In this document: positions 29,585-40,470 of the stretch, one piece after another
How positions within the stretch are numbered: the first letter of the stretch is position 1
Layout: each line of letters begins with the position of its first letter
Assembly (NCBI RefSeq): GCF_021049265.1
Contig: NZ_CP088018.1
Span: 1,612,001 to 1,676,000, forward strand
DNA: 64,000 nucleotides
Direction of reading: 5' to 3'
From: Ruania suaedae
GTDB lineage: Bacteria; Actinomycetota; Actinomycetes; Actinomycetales; Beutenbergiaceae
Notes under the pieces: model-generated
What the model saw: only the letters and a program-made list of their open reading frames with translations
Database searches by the model: none
Told to the model about the DNA's origin: nothing
Program-made: the position numbers and the translations under genes

Positions 29585-30487
29585 GTGGCGAGCACGGTGA
29601 CCGAGGTCGACCGGAACCTCCGCGTGACCGAGCGTATCCATGCCAACCGGGCATTGATGTCGGTGGCGATGCGCAAGATCGCCGATGTCGTGCTGGCCGA
29701 CCCCACCGCACCGCTGGAGCTCTCGATCACCGAGCTGGCCGATCGCGCGGGTACCTCCCCGGCGACCGTCACCCGATTCTGCCGCCAGCTCGGGTACCCC
29801 GGCTACGTGCAGTTCCGCGTCGGCGTGGCCACCGACTCCGGTCGCGGTGAGGATCCCGACGCCGAGACCTGGCGCCTGGAGATGGGACGCACGCTCGACC
29901 CGGACGACTCTCCTGACGACGTGCTGCGCGCGCTGCTCAATGCGCACGTGCGGTCGTTGCGCGCCACGGCGGACGTGCTCGACCTCGCACGGGTCACCGA
30001 GGTCGCCCGGCGGATCACCGGCGCGGCGCACCTCGACATCTATGGCACCGGCGGGAGCTTCTCGATGGCCGACGAGATGCGCACCCGGCTCTACCGCATC
30101 GGCGTCAACGCCCACTCCTGGGGAGACGTGCACGCCGGCCTGGCGAGCGCCTCGATCCAGGGGCCGCGGACCACCGCGATCGGGATCTCGAACAGCGGCC
30201 GTACCCGCGAGACGATCGACATGCTCGCGCGCGCCCAGCGTTCGGGGGCGTTCACGGTGGCCATCACCAGTTTCCCGTCCTCGCCGCTGGCACAGCTCGC
30301 CGACGTGAGCCTGCTCGCCTCGGTCCCGGAGCAATACCTGCACCCGGCGGATCTGTCCGCCAAGCACTCCCAGCTGTTCGTCCTCGATGTGCTCTATCTC
30401 ATCGTGGCTCAGCAGGACTACAGCGGTGCGGCGGCGAAGATCGCGGCCTCGGCCGACGCCGTGGCGGCACGGCGACGCCCCGACTGA
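29585..30487 (+). CDS. RpiR/MurR family transcriptional regulator
   Basis: The 300-residue protein has an N-terminal helix-turn-helix (TELADRAGTSPATVTRFCRQLGY, near residues 50-72) and a C-terminal SIS sugar-phosphate-binding domain (YGTGGSFSMADE, IGISNSGRTRETIDML). RpiR regulators respond to phosphosugars; GlcNAc-6-P or a similar compound is the likely ligand here. GTG at 29585 follows GAGAGG. It heads the operon SIS-protein-ngcEFG and lies divergent from the kinase, so it probably controls both. SIS-domain regulators of this family may be repressors or activators; the sequence does not tell which. Confidence 0.9.
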   Translation: MASTVTEVDRNLRVTERIHANRALMSVAMRKIADVVLADPTAPLELSITELADRAGTSPATVTRFCRQLGYPGYVQFRVGVATDSGRGEDPDAETWRLEMGRTLDPDDSPDDVLRALLNAHVRSLRATADVLDLARVTEVARRITGAAHLDIYGTGGSFSMADEMRTRLYRIGVNAHSWGDVHAGLASASIQGPRTTAIGISNSGRTRETIDMLARAQRSGAFTVAITSFPSSPLAQLADVSLLASVPEQYLHPADLSAKHSQLFVLDVLYLIVAQQDYSGAAAKIAASADAVAARRRPD

Positions 30488-30531
30488 CCCAGGCCACCTG
30501 ACGACCCCCGACCACGACCGAGAGGAACCCG

Positions 30532-31287
30532 ATGATCGACACCGTGTCCGACTTCCACCGAGAGGTGACCGGCCGGCTGGACACCCTGGCCCAGCGTGCT
30601 GCCGACGGCGCATTCGACCCCGCCGTCGACCTGCTGGTCTCCTCGCTCGACGCCGGTGGTGTGATCCAGGCCTTCGGCACGGGGCACTCCGAGGCGTTCG
30701 CGATGGAGATCGCCGGCCGCGCCGGCGGCCTCATCCCGACCACCCGGATCTCGTTGCGCGATGTCGTGCTGCACGGTGACCGCCCGGTGGCCGATCTCGA
30801 GGGCGCGACCATGGAGCGCGACCCCGACGTCGTGTCCGAGCTGCTGGCGGCCTCGCCGCTGCACCCGGAGGACATCTTCGTCATCGCGTCGAACTCGGGT
30901 GTGAACGGCTCCATCGTCGGGTTGGCCCTGGCGGTCAAGGAGCGCGGGCACAAGGTCATCGCGGTCACGAGCATGGAGCACACCATGGCGGTGCCCGTGA
31001 AGCACCCGAGCGGGCAGCGCCTCGCCGACGTGGCCGACGTGGTCATCGACAACCTGGCCCCGTTCGGTGACGCGACGCTCACTCTCGGTGAGACCTACGG
31101 CGTCGGCGCGGTCTCCTCGCTGACCGCCGCGTTCATCGCCCAGGCACTCACGCTCGGCGTCACGGAGCGGATGCTGGCGGCGGGTTCGGTACCGCCGCTG
31201 TACATCTCGGCGAACTCCCCTGGAGGTGACGAGCACAACCATGCACTCGAGGAGCGATACCGCGGCCGGATCCGGCGTGCCGGCTGA
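30532..31287 (+). CDS. SIS domain protein, UPF0309 family
   Basis: The 251-residue protein is a lone SIS domain. AFGTGHSEAFAMEIAGRAGG near residue 48 and VIASNSGVNGSIVGLAL near residue 120 are the phosphosugar-binding loops. UPF0309 members are uncharacterised sugar-phosphate isomerase-like proteins; the locus suggests an amino-sugar phosphate substrate. It lies 44 bases after the regulator with GAGAGGAA before the ATG, in the same operon. It lacks the C-terminal region of MurQ etherases and the glutaminase domain of GlmS. Confidence 0.8.
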   Translation: MIDTVSDFHREVTGRLDTLAQRAADGAFDPAVDLLVSSLDAGGVIQAFGTGHSEAFAMEIAGRAGGLIPTTRISLRDVVLHGDRPVADLEGATMERDPDVVSELLAASPLHPEDIFVIASNSGVNGSIVGLALAVKERGHKVIAVTSMEHTMAVPVKHPSGQRLADVADVVIDNLAPFGDATLTLGETYGVGAVSSLTAAFIAQALTLGVTERMLAAGSVPPLYISANSPGGDEHNHALEERYRGRIRRAG

Positions 31288-31344
31288 CCAGGCCCCGACC
31301 CATGCACTTCCCCCCACCCCCACCACAGAAAGGTCGATGACGAC

Positions 31345-32778
31345 ATGAACACCAAGCTGACCACCACCACCACCACCGACCGCCGGACCGTGCTCCGCGG
31401 CGGACTCATCACGGCCGCCAGCCTCCCGCTCGGCGTCACCCTGGCCTCGTGCGCCACCGGCGGTGGCGACGAGGAGGAGACCACCGACGGCGGCGAGGAG
31501 CCGGGCGGCGAGACCTCGGCGGACAACCCGTTCGGCATGGCGGCGGACACCACCGTCGACGCCGTCATCTTCGACGGCGGCTACGGGGTCGACTACGTCG
31601 AGTTCGCGGCCGAGATCTTCGCCGAGAACCACGAGGGCTCCTCCGTGGAGGTCTCCCCGTCCACCCAGATCGCCACCGAGCTGCAGCCGCGGTTCGTCGG
31701 CGGGAACCCGCCCGACCTGGTCGACAACTCCGGGGCCGGCTCCATCGGCTTCAACGCCATCCTGGACCAGCTCGAGGACCTCAACGCGGTCATCGACGCG
31801 CCGAACCTCGAGGGCACCACGATCCGGGACACCCTCTACGATGGCGTGCTGGCCCCCAGCACCTACGGTGACAAGCTCGCCGCGATCAACTACGTGCTGA
31901 CCGTCTACGGCGTCTGGTACTCCGCCAGCCTGTTCGAGGAGAACGGCTGGACCCCGCCCACTACGTGGGACGAGGCGCTGGAGCTCGGTGCCGCGGCGCA
32001 GGAGCAGGATCTGTACCTGTTCGGCTGGGGTACCGAGGCCTCCACCTACTACCAGACGCTGGCGATCGAGTCGGCGATCAAGGAGGGTGGCGACGAGGTC
32101 CGCCTGGCGCTGGAGAACCTGGAGCCCGACTGCTGGTCGCAGGAGGCGGTCCAGGGTGTGTTCTCGGCGATGAAGGAGGCCGTGGACGCCGGGTACTTCA
32201 AGCCCGGTGGCTCGGGCACACAGTTCACCGCGGCGCAGGCGCAGTGGTCCAACACCCAAGAGTTCCTGCTCTACCCCTCCGGGTCCTGGATCGAGAACGA
32301 GATGCGCGACCAGACCACCGAAGGCTTCGAGATGATGGGCATCTCGTCGATGAGCCTCACCTCCGACCCGGCCCTGGGCCCCGACGCGCTGCACTCCACC
32401 GCGGGCGAGCCGTTCATCGTCCCCTCCGACGGCAACACCGCCGCCGGGATGGAGCTCCTGCGGACCATGCTGTCGAAGGAGTCGGCGGAGAACTTCGCCG
32501 CCACCAAGCTCGCCCCGACCATCGTGCGTGACACGGTCCCCGAGGACGGCTTCGGCTCCACCGCGCTGGTGTCCCAGACCGACCTGCTCTCGGCGGCGGG
32601 GGAGAACATCTTCACGTTCAACTTCGTCAACACCTACGGGATGAACCCCGAGCAGCTGCCGATCTGGAACTCCTTCCTCGACGGCAGCAAGTCCGTCGAG
32701 GACCTGACCAGCGAGCTCCAGGCCATCACCGACCGGATCCGGGAGGATGACACGATCGACAAGGTCGAGGTCTCATGA
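31345..32778 (+). CDS. ngcE: NgcE-type GlcNAc/chitobiose ABC transporter binding lipoprotein
   Basis: The 477-residue protein is a family 1 extracellular solute-binding protein closest in pattern to NgcE, which binds N-acetylglucosamine and chitobiose in Streptomyces. The N-terminus combines a twin-arginine motif (DRRTVLRGG, Arg13-Arg14) with a lipobox LASC (Cys36), so it may be a Tat-exported lipoprotein. An acidic Gly/Glu linker follows. Aromatic sugar-binding segments such as YGVWYSASLFEENGWTPPTTW are visible. AAAGG lies upstream of the ATG. The stop overlaps the first permease gene (ATGA). Confidence 0.85.
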   Translation: MNTKLTTTTTTDRRTVLRGGLITAASLPLGVTLASCATGGGDEEETTDGGEEPGGETSADNPFGMAADTTVDAVIFDGGYGVDYVEFAAEIFAENHEGSSVEVSPSTQIATELQPRFVGGNPPDLVDNSGAGSIGFNAILDQLEDLNAVIDAPNLEGTTIRDTLYDGVLAPSTYGDKLAAINYVLTVYGVWYSASLFEENGWTPPTTWDEALELGAAAQEQDLYLFGWGTEASTYYQTLAIESAIKEGGDEVRLALENLEPDCWSQEAVQGVFSAMKEAVDAGYFKPGGSGTQFTAAQAQWSNTQEFLLYPSGSWIENEMRDQTTEGFEMMGISSMSLTSDPALGPDALHSTAGEPFIVPSDGNTAAGMELLRTMLSKESAENFAATKLAPTIVRDTVPEDGFGSTALVSQTDLLSAAGENIFTFNFVNTYGMNPEQLPIWNSFLDGSKSVEDLTSELQAITDRIREDDTIDKVEVS

Positions 32779-33794
32779 CCCTCTCCGGCTCCGTCATCGA
32801 CGGGCAGCCGCCGAACCAGACCACTCCGACGGGGCCCGTTCCCGGGCCCCGTCGGGGGCGCAAGAAGTGGACGCTGGACCGCGTCAGCTTCTTCGTGGTC
32901 TTCCTCGGACTGCCGCTGGCGCTCTTCCTCGTCTTCGTCATCAACCCGTTCATCCAGGCGGGGTACTACTCGCTGACGAACTGGTCGGGCTTCTCACCGG
33001 AGCAGGAGTTCGTCGGGCTGCAGAACTTCATCACCCTCGCCCAGGATCCGCGGTTCACCAACGCCGTGGGCAACAGCGTGGTGCTCGGCCTGGTGGTGCC
33101 CTTCGTGACGCTCTCGATCGCGCTGATCTTCGCAATCCTCATCACCATCGGTGGTGCCGGCCGCGGCCAGATCCGGGGTGTCAAGGGCGCCGGGTTCTAC
33201 CGGGTGGTCTCGCTGTTTCCGTATGTGATCCCCGGCATCGCGATCGGCCTGATCTGGCGGTTGATCCTCGATCCCAGCAGCGGGCTGGTCAACGGCGTCC
33301 TGACAGGCCTGGGGCTGGACCAGTTCCAGTCCTTCGCCTGGCTCGGCAACATCACAACGGCGATGCCCGCCTCGATCTTCGTGATCGTGTGGGGCTTCGT
33401 GGGCTTCTACATGCTGCTGTTCATCGCCGCGATCAAGGGCATCCCGGCCGAGACCTACGAGGCGGCCCGTCTCGACGGCGCCGGCCGGGCGCGGATGAGT
33501 TGGTCGATCACGCTGCCGCTCATCCGTGACAACGTGCAGACGGCCTACATCTACATCGGCATCATGGCCCTGGACGCCTATGTGTACATGCAGGCGCTGA
33601 ACCCCCAGGGTGGGCCCGACAGCTCGACGCTGGTGATGTCCCAGCAGCTGTTCCGCACGGCCTTTGCCGAGAGCAAGTTCGGCTACGCGAGCGCGATGGG
33701 TGTGGTGATCGCACTGGTCACCCTGGTGTTCGCCGCCCTGGTGTTCACCGTGAACCGGCTCACCGGTGGTCGAGACAGGGGAGGTGCCTCATGA
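32775..33794 (+). CDS. ngcF: NgcF-type sugar ABC transporter permease
   Basis: The 339-residue inner-membrane permease has an N-terminal Pro/Arg-rich cytoplasmic stretch of about 30 residues and six predicted membrane helices. The EAA loop that contacts the ATPase reads ETYEAARLDGAGRARMSWSI. It is of the MalF/UgpA class and pairs with the next gene. Both ends overlap neighbours by four bases, showing tight coupling with the binding protein and second permease. Confidence 0.88.
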   Translation: MTLSGSVIDGQPPNQTTPTGPVPGPRRGRKKWTLDRVSFFVVFLGLPLALFLVFVINPFIQAGYYSLTNWSGFSPEQEFVGLQNFITLAQDPRFTNAVGNSVVLGLVVPFVTLSIALIFAILITIGGAGRGQIRGVKGAGFYRVVSLFPYVIPGIAIGLIWRLILDPSSGLVNGVLTGLGLDQFQSFAWLGNITTAMPASIFVIVWGFVGFYMLLFIAAIKGIPAETYEAARLDGAGRARMSWSITLPLIRDNVQTAYIYIGIMALDAYVYMQALNPQGGPDSSTLVMSQQLFRTAFAESKFGYASAMGVVIALVTLVFAALVFTVNRLTGGRDRGGAS

Positions 33795-34666
33795 GTGCGA
33801 CAACCGCGCAGCGACCGAGCCGGAAGGTGGTGCCCGCCAAGGGTGACCGCCCGGTCGCGGCAGCCTCGCACGGGGCACTGGTGCTCTGGTGCGTGCTCGT
33901 CATCGCACCGATGCTGTGGACCCTGCTCAGTTCGTTCAAGACCTCGAGCGAGATCTTCGCCTCGCCGTTCGGGCTGCCGGCGGAGTGGAGCTTCACCAAC
34001 TACGCCAACGCGTGGGTGGACTCCGGCCTCGGCGATGCGTTCATCAACACCGTCATCGTCGTCGGCACCGCCCTGGTGCTGGTGATGCTGCTGGGCTCGA
34101 TGTGCGCCTACGTGCTCGGGCGGTTCGAGTTCTTCGGGCGCCGGGCGATCTACTACCTGATGCTCGCCGGCCTCACCTTCCCGGTGTTCCTGGCGATCGT
34201 GCCGCTGTTCTTCGTGCTGCAGAACCTCGGCCTGCTGGGCACGTTGCCCGGCCTGATCGTCACCTATGTCTCCTTCGCCCTGCCGTTCACGGTCTTCTTC
34301 CTCTACTCCTTCTTCCGGGGTCTGCCGGATGAGATCAGCGAGGCGGCGGCGATCGACGGCGCGGGGGAGTGGCGCACCTTCTTCCAGGTGATGTTGCCGA
34401 TGGCACGCCCGGGCATGGCCTCGGTGGCGATCTTCAACTTCCTCGGGCTGTGGAACCAGTTCCTGCTGCCGGTGGCGCTGAACACCGACCGGGACAACTG
34501 GGTGCTCGCGCAGGTGCTGGCGAGCTTCATCTCCTCGGCAGGCTACGCCGTCGACTTCGGGGCGATGTTCGCCGCCGCCGTGGTGACGATCGTGCCGGTG
34601 CTGATCGCCTACATCGTCTTCCAGCGTCAGCTCCAGGGCTCGGTGAGCCAGGGAACGATGAAGTAG
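33791..34666 (+). CDS. ngcG: NgcG-type sugar ABC transporter permease
   Basis: The 291-residue permease is of the MalG/UgpE class with six helices. Its EAA loop is EISEAAAIDGAGEWRTFFQV. It completes the membrane part of the importer. No ATPase gene follows; in Streptomyces NgcEFG is energised by the shared ATPase MsiK encoded elsewhere, and the same is inferred here. The ATG overlaps the ngcF stop. Two hairpins follow the gene. Confidence 0.88.
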   Translation: MSATTAQRPSRKVVPAKGDRPVAAASHGALVLWCVLVIAPMLWTLLSSFKTSSEIFASPFGLPAEWSFTNYANAWVDSGLGDAFINTVIVVGTALVLVMLLGSMCAYVLGRFEFFGRRAIYYLMLAGLTFPVFLAIVPLFFVLQNLGLLGTLPGLIVTYVSFALPFTVFFLYSFFRGLPDEISEAAAIDGAGEWRTFFQVMLPMARPGMASVAIFNFLGLWNQFLLPVALNTDRDNWVLAQVLASFISSAGYAVDFGAMFAAAVVTIVPVLIAYIVFQRQLQGSVSQGTMK

Positions 34667-34680
34667 CAGCAACGAACCAG

Positions 34681-34769
34681 CACTGCACCACGCAGTGATT
34701 CTCATCTGACCCACCTGGGGCAGACCGAACCACCACCGGTGATCGGTCAGACCGTCCCAGGTGGGTCAG
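34681..34769 (+). terminator. Tandem hairpins ending the ngc operon
   Basis: A small stem CACTGC/GCAGTG (34681-34697) is followed by a perfect 14-bp inverted repeat CTGACCCACCTGGG (34706-34719) with CCCAGGTGGGTCAG (34756-34769). The 36-base loop of the second contains its own GACCGA/TCGGTC stem, so the whole could form one long rod. It ends 33 bases before the terC promoter box. Confidence 0.65.
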
Positions 34770-34801
34770 GTGCGTGTGGGGCGTGAACGAGGCGGGCCTG
34801 T

Positions 34802-34807
34802 TACGCT
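34802..34807 (+). promoter_or_regulatory. -10 box for terC leader RNA
   Basis: TACGCT would start transcription near 34814, at the first bases of the predicted riboswitch. No good -35 is visible. Confidence 0.5.
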
Positions 34808-34811
34808 CGGC

Positions 34812-34912
34812 CGTTGGAGGGGAGTACCCCTTAAGCGGTGACGTCGTCAGTACAGACGAGCCAGTTCGTCTCGGTGTCATCGGCCCACCAGTGGTGGGGG
34901 AGACCTCCGGTG
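34812..34912 (+). ncRNA. Probable yybP-ykoY manganese riboswitch
   Basis: The terC leader shows the conserved pieces of the yybP-ykoY class: GGGGAGTA (34819-34826), CGTCGTCAGTAC (34842-34853), a GACGA/TCGTC hairpin (34855-34870), a CCCACC/GGTGGG hairpin (34884-34898) and GAGACC (34900-34905). GGAGG at 34816-34820 can pair with CCTCC at 34904-34908 to close the aptamer. This class senses Mn2+ and commonly precedes TerC/Alx-type genes, as here. Its 3' strand is also the 5' arm of the terminator, giving a clear switch. Class assignment is from recalled consensus, not a covariance search. Confidence 0.85.
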
Positions 34913-34938
34913 TACACCCACACTCACCGGAGGTTTTT
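34903..34938 (+). terminator. Riboswitch expression platform: terminator hiding the terC SD
   Basis: ACCTCCGGTG (34903-34912) pairs perfectly with CACCGGAGGT (34925-34934), followed by five Ts (34934-34938), the only classic intrinsic terminator with a T-run found in the window. GGAGG (34929-34933) in the 3' arm is also the terC ribosome binding site, eight bases before the ATG, so the same hairpin can block both transcription and translation. Confidence 0.88.
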
Positions 34939-34941
34939 CGC

Positions 34942-35988
34942 ATGGACGTTCCCCTGTGGGCATGGATCGCCACGGTCGGCCTGATCGTCGTGATGCTCGC
35001 CGTCGACTTCGTCGGCCACGTGCGCAAGGCGCACGCACCGTCGCTGAAGGAGGCGGGCCTGTGGTCGGCCGGCTACGTGCTGATCGCCCTGCTCTTCGGC
35101 GTCTTCGTGCTGCTGGAGTGGGGATCGGACTACGGGCTGCAGTACTTCTCCGGCTACATCACCGAGAAGTCGCTCTCGGTGGACAACCTCTTCGTCTTCG
35201 TGCTGATCATGGCGAGCTTCCGGGTACCCCGGAAGTACCAGCAGAAGGTGCTGCTGATCGGCATCGTGATCGCGCTCGTGCTCCGCACGCTCTTCATCGT
35301 GGCCGGCGCGGCGATCGTCAACCAGTTCGCGTGGATCTTCTACATCTTCGGTGCGTTCCTCATCTACACCGCGATCACGCAGCTCAAGAAGACCGACGAC
35401 GACGAGGAGTTCAAGGAGAACGCCGTGCTCCGGCTCGTGCGTCGCATCTTCCCGACGACCGAGGGTTACGTCGAGGACAAGATGTTCACCCGCGCCGCCG
35501 GCCGGATGCACGTGACGCCGATGTTCATCGTGATCCTCGCGATCGGCAGCGCTGACATCCTCTTCGCGGTCGATTCGATCCCGGCCATCTTCGGGCTGAC
35601 CCAGGAGGTCTTCCTGATCTTCGCCGCAAACGCGTTCTCGCTGCTGGGGCTGCGCCAGCTGTACTTCCTCATCGACGGTCTGCTCGATCGTCTCGTCTAC
35701 CTCAACTACGGGCTGGCGGCGATCCTGGCGTTCATCGGGGCCAAGCTGGTCATCCACGCCCTGCACGAGAACGACGTCTGGTTCATCAACTCCGGCGAGG
35801 AATGGCACGTGATCCCCGAGGTGGGGACCTACGTCTCGCTGATCGTGATCGTGGGGATCCTCACGATCACGACGGTGACGTCCCTGCTGGCCGGGCGGCG
35901 CAGCCACCAGGTGGACCCGGCCGCCCTGCCGCCGACGCAGGAGGACGACGACGAGCGGCGCGACTCCCTCGGCGACCTGTACCGCTGA
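34942..35988 (+). CDS. TerC/Alx family membrane protein, probable manganese exporter
   Basis: The 348-residue protein has about eight membrane helices and the TerC family acidic motifs SVDNLFVFVLI near residue 76 and ILFAVDSIPAIFG near residue 209, which lie in the membrane and are thought to bind metal. Related Alx, MeeF and MeeY proteins lower or export Mn2+. The riboswitch upstream strongly supports a manganese role here over tellurite resistance. The start is the ATG at 34942 with its GGAGG in the terminator arm; an upstream in-frame start at 34774 would read through the riboswitch. The C-terminal tail is acidic. Confidence 0.9.
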   Translation: MDVPLWAWIATVGLIVVMLAVDFVGHVRKAHAPSLKEAGLWSAGYVLIALLFGVFVLLEWGSDYGLQYFSGYITEKSLSVDNLFVFVLIMASFRVPRKYQQKVLLIGIVIALVLRTLFIVAGAAIVNQFAWIFYIFGAFLIYTAITQLKKTDDDEEFKENAVLRLVRRIFPTTEGYVEDKMFTRAAGRMHVTPMFIVILAIGSADILFAVDSIPAIFGLTQEVFLIFAANAFSLLGLRQLYFLIDGLLDRLVYLNYGLAAILAFIGAKLVIHALHENDVWFINSGEEWHVIPEVGTYVSLIVIVGILTITTVTSLLAGRRSHQVDPAALPPTQEDDDERRDSLGDLYR

Positions 35989-35994
35989 GCCTGC

Positions 35995-36291
35995 TCAGGT
36001 GCGGTCGGCGAAGGCCCCGAGCACCGGGTTCCACGCCCGCACGGAACGGTGCGAGATCAGGTGGGCCCGGTGGAAGGGGTCCTCGTCGAGGATCTTCTTG
36101 ACCTCGGTGTCGTTCTCGGCGGACACGAGCAGCAGCGCCCCCGGGGCGGCGTTGTCCAGCCACGGCCCGGAGGCCAGCACGGTGCCCTGCTCCGCCAGCT
36201 CGCCCAGGAAGGCGCGATGGTCGGGCCGGAGAGCGTCGATGTCGGCGGTCCGGGAGATGTCGTAGACGTACTCGACGGCGAAGGTACTCAT
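35995..36291 (-). CDS. YciI-like protein
   Basis: The 98-residue protein is a single YciI/dimeric alpha-beta barrel domain. The conserved His-Asp pair appears as RPDHRAFLGEL, followed by GTVLASGPWLD and the DEDPFHRAHL segment. Family members include small dehydrochlorinases and proteins of unknown role; the substrate cannot be given. It converges with terC across only six bases and has its own leaderless promoter. Confidence 0.85.
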   Translation of the reverse strand: MSTFAVEYVYDISRTADIDALRPDHRAFLGELAEQGTVLASGPWLDNAAPGALLLVSAENDTEVKKILDEDPFHRAHLISHRSVRAWNPVLGAFADRT

Positions 36292-36297
36292 GAGCGC

Positions 36298-36303
36298 ACC
36301 CTA
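36298..36303 (-). promoter_or_regulatory. -10 box of leaderless yciI-like transcript
   Basis: On the minus strand TAGGGT (complement of 36298-36303) ends six bases before the ATG at 36291. No ribosome binding site lies between, so a leaderless mRNA is predicted. Confidence 0.5.
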
Positions 36304-36316
36304 CCGGGATGCCCGT

Positions 36317-37021
36317 TCACCAGCCCCGCTCCCGCCAGGCCGGCAGCTGCGGGCGCTGCGTGCCGAGGATCGTGCTGTCGCCGTGGCCCGGGTGGACGAG
36401 CGTGGAGTCCGGATGCATATCGAAGACCCGGGCGGTGACGTCCGCGAGCAGCTGCTCGAAGTCCTCCTGGGACCGGGTCTTGCCGACCCCGCCGGGGAAC
36501 AGGCTGTCACCGGTGAACAACCAGGTGACCCCCTGCGGATCCCGCCACGCCAGCGCGATCGATCCGCGGGTGTGCCCGCGCAGGGCGATCACCTCGAACC
36601 GGTGCGAGCCGAGGTCGACCACGTCCTGGTGCACCAGGCGCCGGGTGGCGCGCGTCGGCAGCTCGCCGGCGTCGGGCGCACCGGCCAGCACGTCGGCGCC
36701 GGTGGCAGCCACCACCTCGGTGAGCGCTCGGTGATGGTCCCAGTGTCGGTGCGTCGTCACCACGGCGGTGAGCCGCCCGTGTGGATGGCACGCGTGCAGG
36801 AGCTCCAGCAGCCGGGGGGCGTCGTCGGCGGCATCGATCAGCAACTGATCGCCGCTCACGGCGTCGGTGAGCAGGTAGGCGTTGTTGTCCTGCGAGGAGA
36901 CGCTCATCTTGGACAGCTGCAGGTCGCCCCGCCGCCAGTGCAGCGCTGGCCCGCCGGCCTCCACATGGGCCGGCACCACCGCGGGCTCGTCGTGGCGGCC
37001 AGGCACGGCGGGGCCGGTCAT
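36317..37021 (-). CDS. Metallo-beta-lactamase fold hydrolase (GloB-like)
   Basis: The 234-residue protein has the zinc-binding signature [11 protein letters not shown] near residue 92, ALRGHTRGS with the next His, [10 protein letters not shown] with the bridging Asp, and VHPGHG near the C-terminus. NNAYLL and the spacing resemble glyoxalase II-like hydrolases that cleave thioesters. It overlaps the upstream VOC gene by four bases, so the pair may act as a glyoxalase I/II-like couple; in this lineage mycothiol would replace glutathione. That pathway role is inference. Confidence 0.85.
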
Positions 37022-37428
37022 GGCAGCAAACTCTCACCGAGCGCCGTGGGATTGACGGCGATCTCCCACCGGAAGCCGTCGGGGTCGACGGCGTAGCCGG
37101 AGTACCCGCCCCAGGTGCGCCACGACGCCGTCCCCACCTGACCTCCGGCCGCGGCTGCGAGCTCGAGCACGGCATCGACCTGGGCCGGTTCGGTGACGTT
37201 GTGGGCGAGGGTGAGCGGGGGAGCGCCGCCCGCCGAGACGGGGCCGATCTCGGCCTCGGCGTGCTCGCGCTGCCACAGCGAGAGCAGCAACCGTTCGCCG
37301 ACGCGGATCATCAGGACCTCCCCGGGCACGTCGACCTCGGCCGTCCAGCCGAGACCGTCGATGTAGAAGGCGCGGGAGCGGTCGAGATCGGTGACGACGA
37401 GGGTGACGAGACTGAGTCGCTGATCCAT
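37018..37428 (-). CDS. VOC family protein (glyoxalase-like)
   Basis: The 136-residue protein has two beta-alpha-beta-beta-beta modules of the vicinal oxygen chelate fold. It opens with [22 protein letters not shown], and the C-terminal [19 protein letters not shown] carries the metal-ligand Glu. Function may be glyoxalase I, dioxygenase or thiol transferase. The ATG at 37428 is chosen because it begins the domain; the frame stays open across uvrA only as a shadow. CACACT six bases upstream resembles a degenerate leaderless -10. It is divergent from uvrA (90 bases). Confidence 0.82.
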
Positions 37429-37474
37429 ACCGAGAGTGTGGCATCCGCCACCGACGTGTTCGCCGTCGGCAGAG

Positions 37475-37511
37475 TCGAACGCTTGTACGAGGTCGGTGTC
37501 CGGCTTACGAT
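37475..37511 (+). promoter_or_regulatory. uvrA promoter with LexA (SOS) box
   Basis: TCGAAC-GCTT-GTACGA (37475-37490) matches the actinobacterial LexA box TCGAAC-N4-GTTCGA at 11 of 12 defined positions. It overlaps the -35 TTGTAC (37483-37488), which is 17 bases from the -10 TACGAT (37506-37511). The -10 ends seven bases before the GTG at 37519, so the mRNA is predicted to be leaderless and LexA binding would block polymerase directly. Confidence 0.75.
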
Positions 37512-37518
37512 GGCGGGC

Positions 37519-40470
37519 GTGAGTGACTCCCTCCTCGTGCGCGGTGCCCGCGAGCACAACCTCAAGAACGTCAGTATCGATCTCCCCCGTGACGGTCTCG
37601 TCGTCTTCACCGGCCTGTCCGGCTCCGGGAAATCCTCGCTGGCGTTCGACACGATCTTCGCCGAGGGCCAGCGCCGCTACGTGGAGTCGTTGTCGGCCTA
37701 CGCGCGCCAGTTCCTCGGCCAGATGGACAAGCCCGATGTCGACTTCATCGAAGGGCTCTCTCCGGCGGTCTCCATCGACCAGAAGTCGACCAACCGCAAC
37801 CCGCGATCGACGGTCGGCACGATCACCGAGGTGTACGACTACCTGCGGCTGCTGTTCGCGCGGGCCGGGATCCAGCACTGCCCGCAGTGCGGGGAGCGGA
37901 TCGTGGCCCAGACGCCGCAGCAGATCGTCGACCGGCTGCGGGCGATGCCCGAGGGCACGCGGTTCCAGGTCCTCGCTCCGGTGGTGCGCGGCCGCAAGGG
38001 GGAGTACGCCGACCTGTTCAAGGACCTGCAGTCCCGCGGGTTCGCGCGAGCCCTGGTCGACGGCGAGCTCGTGCAGCTCAGCGAGCCGCCGGTGCTGGAG
38101 AAGAAGCTCAAGCACACCATCAGCGTCGTGGTGGACCGGCTGGTGGTGCGCGAGAACATCCGCCAGCGCCTGACCGACTCCGTCGAGACGGCGCTCGGAC
38201 TGGCCGACGGCCTCGTCGTGGCCGACTTCGTCGACCTGGAGGCCGACGATCCCGAGCGCACGCGCCGGTTCTCCGAGAAACGTGCCTGCCCCAACGACCA
38301 CCCGCTCGCGCTGGAGGAGATGGAGCCACGCACCTTCTCCTTCAACGCCCCGTACGGCGCCTGCCCGGACTGCAGCGGTATCGGTACCCGGCTCGAGGTC
38401 GACCCCGAACTGGTCATCCCCGACGACGACCTCAGCCTCGTCGAGGGGGCGGTGGCTCCGTGGGCCGGAGCGAACGCCCAGTACTTCGACCGCGTGCTGG
38501 TCGCACTGGGGGAGGAGCTGGGCTTCTCGGTCGAGGTGCCCTGGCGGGCACTGCCGCAGCGCGCCAAGGAGGCCGTGCTGCACGGCAAGGACCACAAGGT
38601 GCACGTGCGGTACAAGAACCGCTGGGGGCGCGAGCGCGCCTACTCCACCGGTTTCGAGGGCGTCATCTCCTTCCTGCAGCGCCGTCACTCCGAGACTGAG
38701 TCGGAGTGGTCGCGCGAGAAGTACGAGGAGTACATGCGCCAGGTGCCGTGCCCCACCTGCCAGGGCGCACGGCTCAAGCCCGAGGTGCTGGCGGTCACGG
38801 TGGGCGGCAAGTCGATCGCGGACGTGTGCTTCCTCGCCATCGACGAGGCGAAGCGCTTCCTCGACGGTCTCGAGCTCGGTGAGCGCGAGGCCGCGATCGC
38901 CGGGCAGGTGCTCAAGGAGATCCACGCCCGGCTCGGGTTCCTGCTCGACGTCGGACTGGACTACCTCTCCCTGGCCCGCCCCGCCGGCACACTCTCCGGC
39001 GGTGAGGCACAGCGGATCCGCCTCGCCACCCAGATCGGCTCCGGCCTGGTCGGTGTGCTGTACGTGCTCGACGAGCCCAGCATCGGCCTCCACCAGCGCG
39101 ACAACCGCCGTCTGATCGAGACCCTCACCCGGCTGCGCGACCTCGGCAACACGCTCATCGTGGTCGAGCACGACGAAGACACCATCCGCTCGGCCGACTG
39201 GATCGTCGACATCGGACCCGGCGCCGGCGAGCACGGCGGTCACATCGTGCACTCCGGTGACTACGCCGGTCTGCTGGAGGCCCCGGACTCCCTCACCGGC
39301 GCCTACCTGGCCGGCCGGCGCAGCATCCCGATCCCGGCCGAGCGACGCCAGCCGGAGAAGGGGCGCTGGGTGACCGTGCACCGGGCGCGCGAGAACAACC
39401 TTCGCAGCGTCGACGTCTCGTTCCCGCTGGGGACGCTGACCGCCGTGACCGGCGTCTCCGGATCGGGGAAGTCGACGCTGGTCAACGGCATCCTCTACAA
39501 CGTGCTCGCGAACGAGCTGAACGGCGCCAAGCACGTGCCGGGCCGGCACAAGCGGGTGACGGGGCTGGAGCAGCTGGACAAGGTCGTACACGTCGACCAG
39601 AGCCCGATCGGGCGCACGCCGCGCTCCAATCCGGCCACCTACACCGGTGTGTGGGACCACATGCGCAAGCTGTTCGCCCAGACGCAGGAGGCGAAGGTGC
39701 GTGGCTACACGCCCGGGCGCTTCTCCTTCAACGTCAAGGGCGGGCGCTGCGAGGCGTGCTCGGGCGACGGCACGCTGAAGATCGAGATGAACTTCCTTCC
39801 CGACGTCTACGTCCCGTGCGAGGTCTGCCACGGCGCGCGGTACAACCGCGAGACGCTCGAGGTGCACTACAAGGGCAGGACGGTCGCCGAGGTCCTCGAC
39901 ATGCCGATCTCGGAGGCGGCCGAGTTCTTCGCAGCCGTGCCCGCGATCGCGCGCCACCTGCGGACCCTGGTCGACGTCGGCCTTGGCTACGTCCGGCTCG
40001 GGCAGCCCGCGCCCACGCTCTCCGGCGGTGAGGCACAGCGCGTCAAGCTCGCCTCCGAACTGCAGAAGCGCTCCACCGGGCGCACGGTCTACGTGCTGGA
40101 CGAACCGACCACCGGGCTGCACTTCGAGGACATCAGCCGGCTGATGATCGTGCTGCAGGGACTGGCGGAGAAGGGCAACACGGTCATCGTGATCGAGCAC
40201 AACCTCGACGTGATCAAGAACGCGGACTGGGTGATCGACATGGGTCCGGAGGGCGGGTCCGGCGGTGGCCTCGTGGTCGCCGAGGGCACCCCGGAGGAGG
40301 TGGCGCGCGTCGAGGCCTCGCACACGGGCCGCTTCCTCGCCGAGATCCTCGGGACCGACGCCGTGGCCGATCTGCGTCCGGTGACGGCGGTCGCCCCCCT
40401 GAACGCCCCGAAGGCACGATCGGCGCGCCGCTCCGCGCGGGTGGCGAAGGCCAAGAAGGAGAGTGCCTAG
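37519..40470 (+). CDS. uvrA: Excinuclease ABC subunit A
   Basis: UvrA is the dimeric ABC ATPase that finds bulky DNA lesions and loads UvrB. The 983-residue protein has two ATPase halves: Walker [10 protein letters not shown] near residue 31 with signature [12 protein letters not shown], and GVSGSGKST near residue 648 with [12 protein letters not shown]. Zinc modules are visible as CPDCSGIG and, in the second half, CEACSGDG...[13 protein letters not shown] at 37519 is favoured over ATG 37510 because it sits seven bases after the -10. The SOS box implies induction by DNA damage. Confidence 0.97.

Follow-up and report, generated by a model that had tools for sequence, protein, structure and literature searches.

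The leader that precedes terC in Ruania suaedae is very probably a manganese-activated (ON) riboswitch of the yybP-ykoY family, built like the P2-less leader of alx and acting on terC mainly at the level of translation. This reading is drawn from the sequence of the leader and from its comparison with related leaders. The leader lies in a window of 64,000 nt, the whole stretch of DNA analysed here (GCF_021049265.1, contig NZ_CP088018.1, positions 1,612,001-1,676,000, forward strand), and all of its features are listed in Table 1 with window positions. In the proposed mechanism, transcription would start adjoining the aptamer, and the binding of Mn2+ between L1 and L3, two loops of the aptamer, would hold helix P1.1 (34816-34820 / 34904-34908), so that the ribosome-binding site stays free and terC is made. 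When Mn2+ is lacking, the 3' strand of P1.1 would pair with the ribosome-binding site instead and hide it. Because a run of Ts follows the hairpin formed in this way, partial termination of transcription is possible in R. suaedae as well, though we regard it as the less probable case. We infer the binding of Mn2+ and the direction of control from these features, and the gene downstream is assigned to Mn2+ homeostasis by family alone (TIGR03718 R_switched_Alx, PF03741), the first of these families being named after Alx of E. coli.

Table 1. Features of the terC leader and gene (window positions)
Feature	Position	Strand	Basis or remark
Candidate -10 promoter box TACGCT; predicted RNA start ~34813	34802..34807	+	position relative to GGGGAGTA
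Putative Mn2+ aptamer, yybP-ykoY type without P2	34814..34908	+	RF00080 33.7 bits; covariation
P1.1 5' strand GGAGG	34816..34820	+	partner 34904-34908; 4/5 pairs double-changed, 64 rows
Motif GGGGAGTA	34819-34826	+	read in sequence
L1, GGAGUA	34821..34826	+	GGGGAGTA invariant in 34/34 aligned leaders (found by that motif)
P1.2 5' strand	34827..34830	+	partner 34896-34899; covariation (17- and 64-row sets)
P3.1 5' strand	34837..34843	+	partner 34875-34881; 6/7 pairs double-changed (17 leaders)
Motif CGTCGTCAGTAC	34842-34853	+	read in sequence
L3, UCGUCAGUAC	34844..34853	+	CGTCA invariant in 34 aligned leaders
P3.2 5' strand	34854..34858	+	partner 34867-34871; 5/5 pairs double-changed (17 leaders)
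P4 region, short and weak in R. suaedae	34884..34895	+	covariation; 1/3 modelled pairs non-standard here
GAGACC: L1 3' side and start of P1.1 3' strand	34900..34905	+	AGACCT invariant in 34 leaders
Switch strand CCTCC, shared by P1.1 (as its 3' strand) and the hairpin (as its 5' arm); overlaps GAGACC	34904..34908	+	
10-bp hairpin with a 12-nt loop that sequesters the ribosome-binding site; possible terminator	34903..34934	+	-19.0 kcal/mol with one extra G-U pair
terC Shine-Dalgarno GGAGG	34929..34933	+	8 nt upstream of ATG 34942
Run of five Ts	34934..34938	+	not conserved among relatives
terC / alx-type TerC gene, 348 aa	34942..35988	+	PF03741 172.7 bits; TIGR03718 R_switched_Alx 376.3 bits, cut-off 246.4

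No Rfam family attains its gathering score anywhere in the 64-kb window in an Rfam scan. With permissive settings on a 301-base stretch, RF00080 matches 34807-34961 with an E value of 8.3e-8 (gathering score 45), and in a search of the whole genome the terC leader (E 2.3e-7) is the sole match at E <=0.001. The original prediction had named the Rfam covariance search as a test and the lack of a hit above threshold as its refutation. The leader does fall below the gathering score, yet this does not refute the prediction, and the cut-off was dropped as a test because the Mn2+-responsive mntP and alx leaders of E. coli (L201 1462-1558 and L200 1375-1522, respectively) fail it too. The mntP leader scores 41.6 bits, so a cut-off of 45 does not decide membership, and the alx leader goes unreported by RF00080 (Rfam 15) at E up to 1. 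The low score in R. suaedae thus stems at least partly from the model itself. Another covariance model, named R1, was built from the window leader and 16 other actinobacterial leaders, which were aligned and given an aptamer structure defined by hand; RNAalifold on a first MAFFT alignment had been defeated by the variable lengths of P3 and P4 and gave no usable aptamer, and the hand-defined structure on 17 leaders replaced it. R1 contains actinobacterial leaders only and alx of E. coli was outside its training set, yet it detects that leader with a score of 42.3 bits (E 5.6e-9). Expression of a lacZ reporter fused to the alx leader reportedly increases 3-fold at 1 mM Mn2+ and 6.5-fold at 2 mM, and alkaline pH elicits a response as well (PMC9603457).

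Underneath these scores, the parts of the aptamer can be recognized one by one. The landmarks on which the original prediction was based are all present in the sequence. The L1 motif GGGGAGUA and the CGUCA core of L3 occur in the R. suaedae leader and are invariant in 34/34 aligned leaders, which were themselves chosen by these motifs, and the switch helix P1.1 is present together with P3.1 and P3.2. Among the 17 leaders, 97.0% of the aptamer cells are paired and 14 of the 24 pairs change on both sides; the covariation score is 0.513 against a shuffled mean of 0.194, a value that none of 500 shuffles attained, and only 41-58% of cells pair when the partners are slid by 1-3 columns. P1.1 is nearly invariant in this set. 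When 64 distinct rows are fitted to R1, 23 of the 24 pairs are double-changed, including four of the five in P1.1, in an alignment that is biased towards R1 and was made from every match with E <=0.1 (66 matches, of which three are weak). Chance resemblance or a decayed aptamer, for which the sub-threshold Rfam score might speak, is highly improbable given this strong covariation, the retention of positions invariant in 34 leaders, and R1 matches in 23 of the 24 genomes of the family. Together with the RF00080 match, the same evidence supports the identity of the terC leader as a manganese (yybP-ykoY) aptamer, as originally proposed.

The aptamer differs from the solved ones by the absence of P2. 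The gap between P1.2 and P3.1 is 5-6 nt in all 17 aligned leaders, the Rfam alignment of the R. suaedae leader reduces P2 to three bases against three with an empty loop, and a potential 4-bp hairpin in this stretch is found in 10 of 146 leaders (a larger set of 148, defined below, minus two without a recognized L3 motif). Solved yybP-ykoY aptamers form a four-way junction (PMC6754395), and the P2-less form would make a three-way junction. The alx leader aligned to R1 is likewise without P2, and the mntP leader aligned to RF00080 has it; P2 was treated as non-defining because the alx leader responds to Mn2+ without it. In L. lactis and X. oryzae an adenosine of L3 contacts the Mn2+ ion (PMC6754395), and by analogy A34849 is expected to be the contacting adenosine in R. 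suaedae.

The prediction had also placed the start of the RNA right at the aptamer, behind a TACGCT promoter element, and here it gains support from two sides. A TANNNT element ends 8-15 nt upstream of GGGGAGTA in 30 of 54 leaders (57 minus L001, L002 and L005, which are extra copies of the loci of the window and of L006), whereas nine alternative offset ranges each gave 0-2 of 54, and the element is found at the same position in 96 of the 148 leaders of the larger set. In addition, the terC RNA of C. glutamicum has a mapped start that lies 6 nt within the Rfam match (PMC3890552). These data support the candidate -10 box (34802-34807), and the start site itself is predicted from it. Further upstream, at 34703-34772, a 70-nt inverted repeat (-50.3 kcal/mol) without a T-run separates the terC leader from an ABC-permease gene and probably marks where the transport operon upstream ends.

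How could such an aptamer govern terC? The strand CCTCC at 34904-34908 has two possible partners, GGAGG at 34816-34820, with which it closes P1.1, and the terC ribosome-binding site at 34929-34933, as the prediction had it: one strand is common to P1.1 and the downstream hairpin, and the 3' arm of this hairpin holds the ribosome-binding site. The site thus sits in a hairpin that excludes the closing helix of the aptamer, which is the arrangement of a translational riboswitch. Both pairings were followed in 148 distinct leaders, from which identical ones had been removed and which were limited to those with at least 4 of the 5 P1.1 pairs. The two strands of P1.1 change together, as GGAGG/CCTCC in 78 leaders, GAAGG/CCTTC in 30, CAAGG/CCTTG in 5 and lesser forms in others. 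Without the pairing requirement, 120 of 137 leaders have five pairs, 14 have four and 3 have three, a count in which two of the five pairs fall in motifs used for finding the leaders. In leaders whose shared strand is CCTTC, the arm with the ribosome-binding site is GGAGG in most cases (14/18), which gives a G-U pair; certain genera of the family have GAAAGG or GAAGGG in this arm.

A hairpin of at least 7 pairs overlaps the ribosome-binding site in 103 of the 148 leaders; among the other 45, 14 overlap the site with a shorter stem and 31 have no overlap. Shuffling the downstream 90 nt leaves a mean of 3.6 leaders with the hairpin (range 1-9, 30 rounds). Swapping the 5' arm (first 11 nt) among leaders leaves 79 (73-86), fewer than 103 in all 30 rounds, and this count is high because most 5' arms are alike. 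In the hairpin alignment 92.3% of cells are paired, compared with 35-49% for slid versions, and 4 of the 10 pairs are double-changed. The double-change cells (12 vs 4.1 shuffled) and the covariation score (0.221 vs 0.121) exceed all 500 shuffles; at least as many double-change pairs (4), however, turned up in 141 of the shuffles, and at least as many pair types in 314. The covariation of the hairpin is weaker than that of the aptamer. Micromonospora leaders (L032, L035-L037, L039, L043) keep the CCTCC/GGAGG pairing with ~75 nt between the arms, and some leaders of Microbacterium, Pseudarthrobacter and a Propionibacteriales MAG (L040, L049, L050, L056) have a CAAGG/CCTTG P1.1 and seemingly a different platform.

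Energy calculations by themselves speak against the proposed switch and bear on when the choice between the two folds would be made. Folds starting at 34814 reach -60.6 kcal/mol with the hairpin, -43.5 with P1.1 enforced and -41.3 with the whole aptamer enforced, so that energy alone puts the fold that hides the ribosome-binding site ahead by 17-19 kcal/mol, Mn2+ and tertiary contacts being outside the calculation. For an RNA ending at 34908, the best fold is at -39.1 and the aptamer at -34.3 kcal/mol, and P1.1 is complete 26 nt ahead of the end of the 3' arm of the hairpin. Since the energies favour the hairpin, the fold would have to be chosen during RNA synthesis, with Mn2+ and tertiary contacts paying for the aptamer.

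The hairpin was originally described as a terminator, and of this description one part stands and another is weakened. It is a perfect 10-bp inverted repeat (34903-34912 / 34925-34934, loop 12 nt) followed by five Ts, a G+C-rich stable hairpin with a T-run as in intrinsic terminators. The first T (34934), however, pairs with A34903 and closes the stem, leaving four Ts free before CGC. A rough terminator score of the d'Aubenton Carafa type is borderline: +2.8 when the first T is assigned to the tail and -5.7 when it is assigned to the stem. Taking the better of the two counts for each, this hairpin is the only one of 103 with a positive score. That it is the only hairpin of the window with a T-run is confirmed for stems of at least 7 pairs, loops of 3-15 and at least four Ts behind, on either strand; 40 shuffled windows gave 9 such hairpins altogether, one of them with a stem of at least 9. 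The further suggestion of the prediction, that the T-run points to a need for quick and reversible action, gains no support from these results. A stock promoter and terminator scan of 30000-40000, which allows loops of 3-8 nt only, returned no promoter, did not list the leader hairpin and gave three weak unrelated hairpins.

Among relatives, a T-run of at least four lies behind the stem in only 6 of the 103 hairpin-bearing leaders and is thus not conserved. As the hairpin is kept in 103 of 148 leaders and the T-run in 6 of these, the conserved action is on translation. Within the genus, the spacer after GGAGG reads TTTTT in R. suaedae and otherwise TTTT, TTTA, TATTTT, GTTTTT, TTTC, TAAC, TAAT, TCAG or TCTC. 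T-runs of at least four occur in 4 of 11 genus leaders (8 genomes) and in none of 171 other sampled spacers between GGAGG and a start codon (Fisher p 7e-6, although the relatives are not independent). The spacers come from 464 kb of the genome and from frames of at least 100 codons, some of which are perhaps not genes, and the sample excludes the 6-T spacer of the infC leader, which precedes a frame of 5 codons. The T-run is therefore unusual for a spacer and peculiar to this lineage, and it is conserved less than the ribosome-binding site.

This infC leader is a further hairpin of the kind in the same genome (L182 7735-7785; G000:C1 ~1447735-1447785). It reads ACCTCCG...CGGAGGT, then TTTTTTC, then the ATG of the 5-codon open frame, and close copies with GGAGGCTTTTTCATG exist in two sister genomes (L202, L203). 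We take the genes behind it, from their sequences, to be infC-rpmI-rplT-like. The leader looks like an attenuator of the initiation-factor-3 operon.

What, then, is the T-run for? We lean towards the reading that it is an unstructured spacer between the ribosome-binding site and the start codon and that control is purely translational. The pattern of conservation, in which hairpin and ribosome-binding site are kept and the T-run is not, fits this reading. Actinobacterial T-boxes, together with the THI, RFN and B12 elements mentioned in a background passage, are said to hide the Shine-Dalgarno box (PMC1262725), and E. coli mntP is described as controlled at translation (PMC11647493). The rarity of such runs weighs on the other side, since T-runs of at least four occur in 1 of 172 genome spacers and that one is terC. 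It is possible, as the original prediction had it, and we put it forward tentatively, that the same hairpin is both sequestor and true intrinsic terminator, low Mn2+ then stopping transcription and blocking translation at once. The five Ts directly 3' of the ribosome-binding site, in the sole T-run hairpin of the window, would be accounted for, as would the excess of T-runs in the genus over other spacers and the best terminator score among the leaders; furthermore, GGAGGTTTTT shortly upstream of a start codon occurs twice genome-wide and the reversed pattern never. The scarcity of the run among the leaders, the TTTA, TTTC, TAAC and TCTC spacers within the genus, and the negative score once the first T is drawn into the stem, with only four Ts free before CGC, speak against a terminator. 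A role for Rho, by which mRNA left untranslated at low Mn2+ would be terminated, is rather unlikely and would be compatible with either a spacer or a dual platform; E. coli mntP has been reported to behave so (PMC11647493). As for history, we consider it doubtful, though worth stating, that a translational manganese switch in this genus gained a T-run and with it a second, transcriptional output of the same hairpin. If this were true, the natural series of TTTA, TTTT, GTTTTT and TTTTT behind a near-identical stem would let the change from translational to dual control be traced between close species.

Leaders of this form are widespread in the surrounding lineage. Besides the family, R1 matches in 121 of 198 sampled genomes of the order, 116 of 197 of the class and 32 of 149 of the phylum. 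RF00080 matches in 3 of 24 genomes of the family and 4 of 197 of the class, none above its cut-off; the class-level searches with both models used stricter filters, under which even the R. suaedae leader's own RF00080 match is lost. Three of the four class-level RF00080 matches (G352, G443, G458) lie at places absent from the R1 list, so R1 does not cover every form of manganese switch. When 69 TerC relatives were fetched by protein, 56 of their loci had an R1 match at E <=4e-8 (13 of the 56 in the training set), and the 13 loci without one include 6 Clavibacter. The second TerC gene of the R. suaedae genome (L003, G000:C1:3472808-3473389, minus strand) has no R1 leader on either strand around it. 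Some genomes of the genus (L008, L009, L105, L108, L110) carry two leaders in tandem, each before what appears from its first codons to be a terC of its own. We regard a second, weak R1 match before terC in L006/L005 (17.2 bits), and another weak one in L020 (15.5 bits), as due to chance, and inspection of the genes at two matches away from terC (L071 2960-3041; L072 1054-1188, minus strand) gave no result.

Comparison with known systems shows which traits the leader shares. Like the yybP-ykoY switches of L. lactis and E. coli mntP (RF00080), it has L1 GGGGAGUA, an L3 CGUCA with the adenosine that contacts Mn2+ in those aptamers, and a P1.1 3' strand common to the downstream hairpin (PMC6754395, PMC11087558), and the same ON logic is expected; unlike the solved members it is without P2, and the L. 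lactis switch is described as acting on transcription. The alx leader of E. coli resembles it in preceding a gene annotated as the Mn2+ exporter Alx, in its Mn2+ response and in an R1 alignment without P2; it differs in being gammaproteobacterial and in responding also to alkaline pH. The cg2157 (terC) leader of C. glutamicum belongs to the same phylum and gene, its RNA start has been mapped at the start of the aptamer, and an older Rfam model annotated it at 49.13 bits (PMC3890552). The dual expression platforms of Barrick and Breaker (2007), in which a terminator hairpin near the gene carries the ribosome-binding site on its 3' side, come closest to the possible second output; they belong to other riboswitch classes, and the text consulted of PMC2258182 has 0 occurrences of 'yybp'.

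Much of this is already known in principle: Mn2+ riboswitches before terC/alx, including the one annotated in C. glutamicum (PMC3890552), actinobacterial RNA switches that act on the Shine-Dalgarno box (PMC1262725), and a terminator hairpin holding the ribosome-binding site, described as a dual platform in 2007 (PMC2258182). A literature search over titles and the openings of abstracts showed no paper that treats this leader or the P2-less manganese switches of Actinobacteria. The R. suaedae leader itself is ordinary and adds one probable member to the family, together with a lineage in which dual control may be emerging. The P2-less form is common in this actinobacterial class and hardly visible to Rfam 15, and from the class-level counts of R1 and RF00080 it follows that manganese switches of the terC/alx type are probably under-annotated. 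In addition, close relatives within the genus differ in whether a T-run follows the near-identical hairpin, which would open the passage from translational to dual control to a test.
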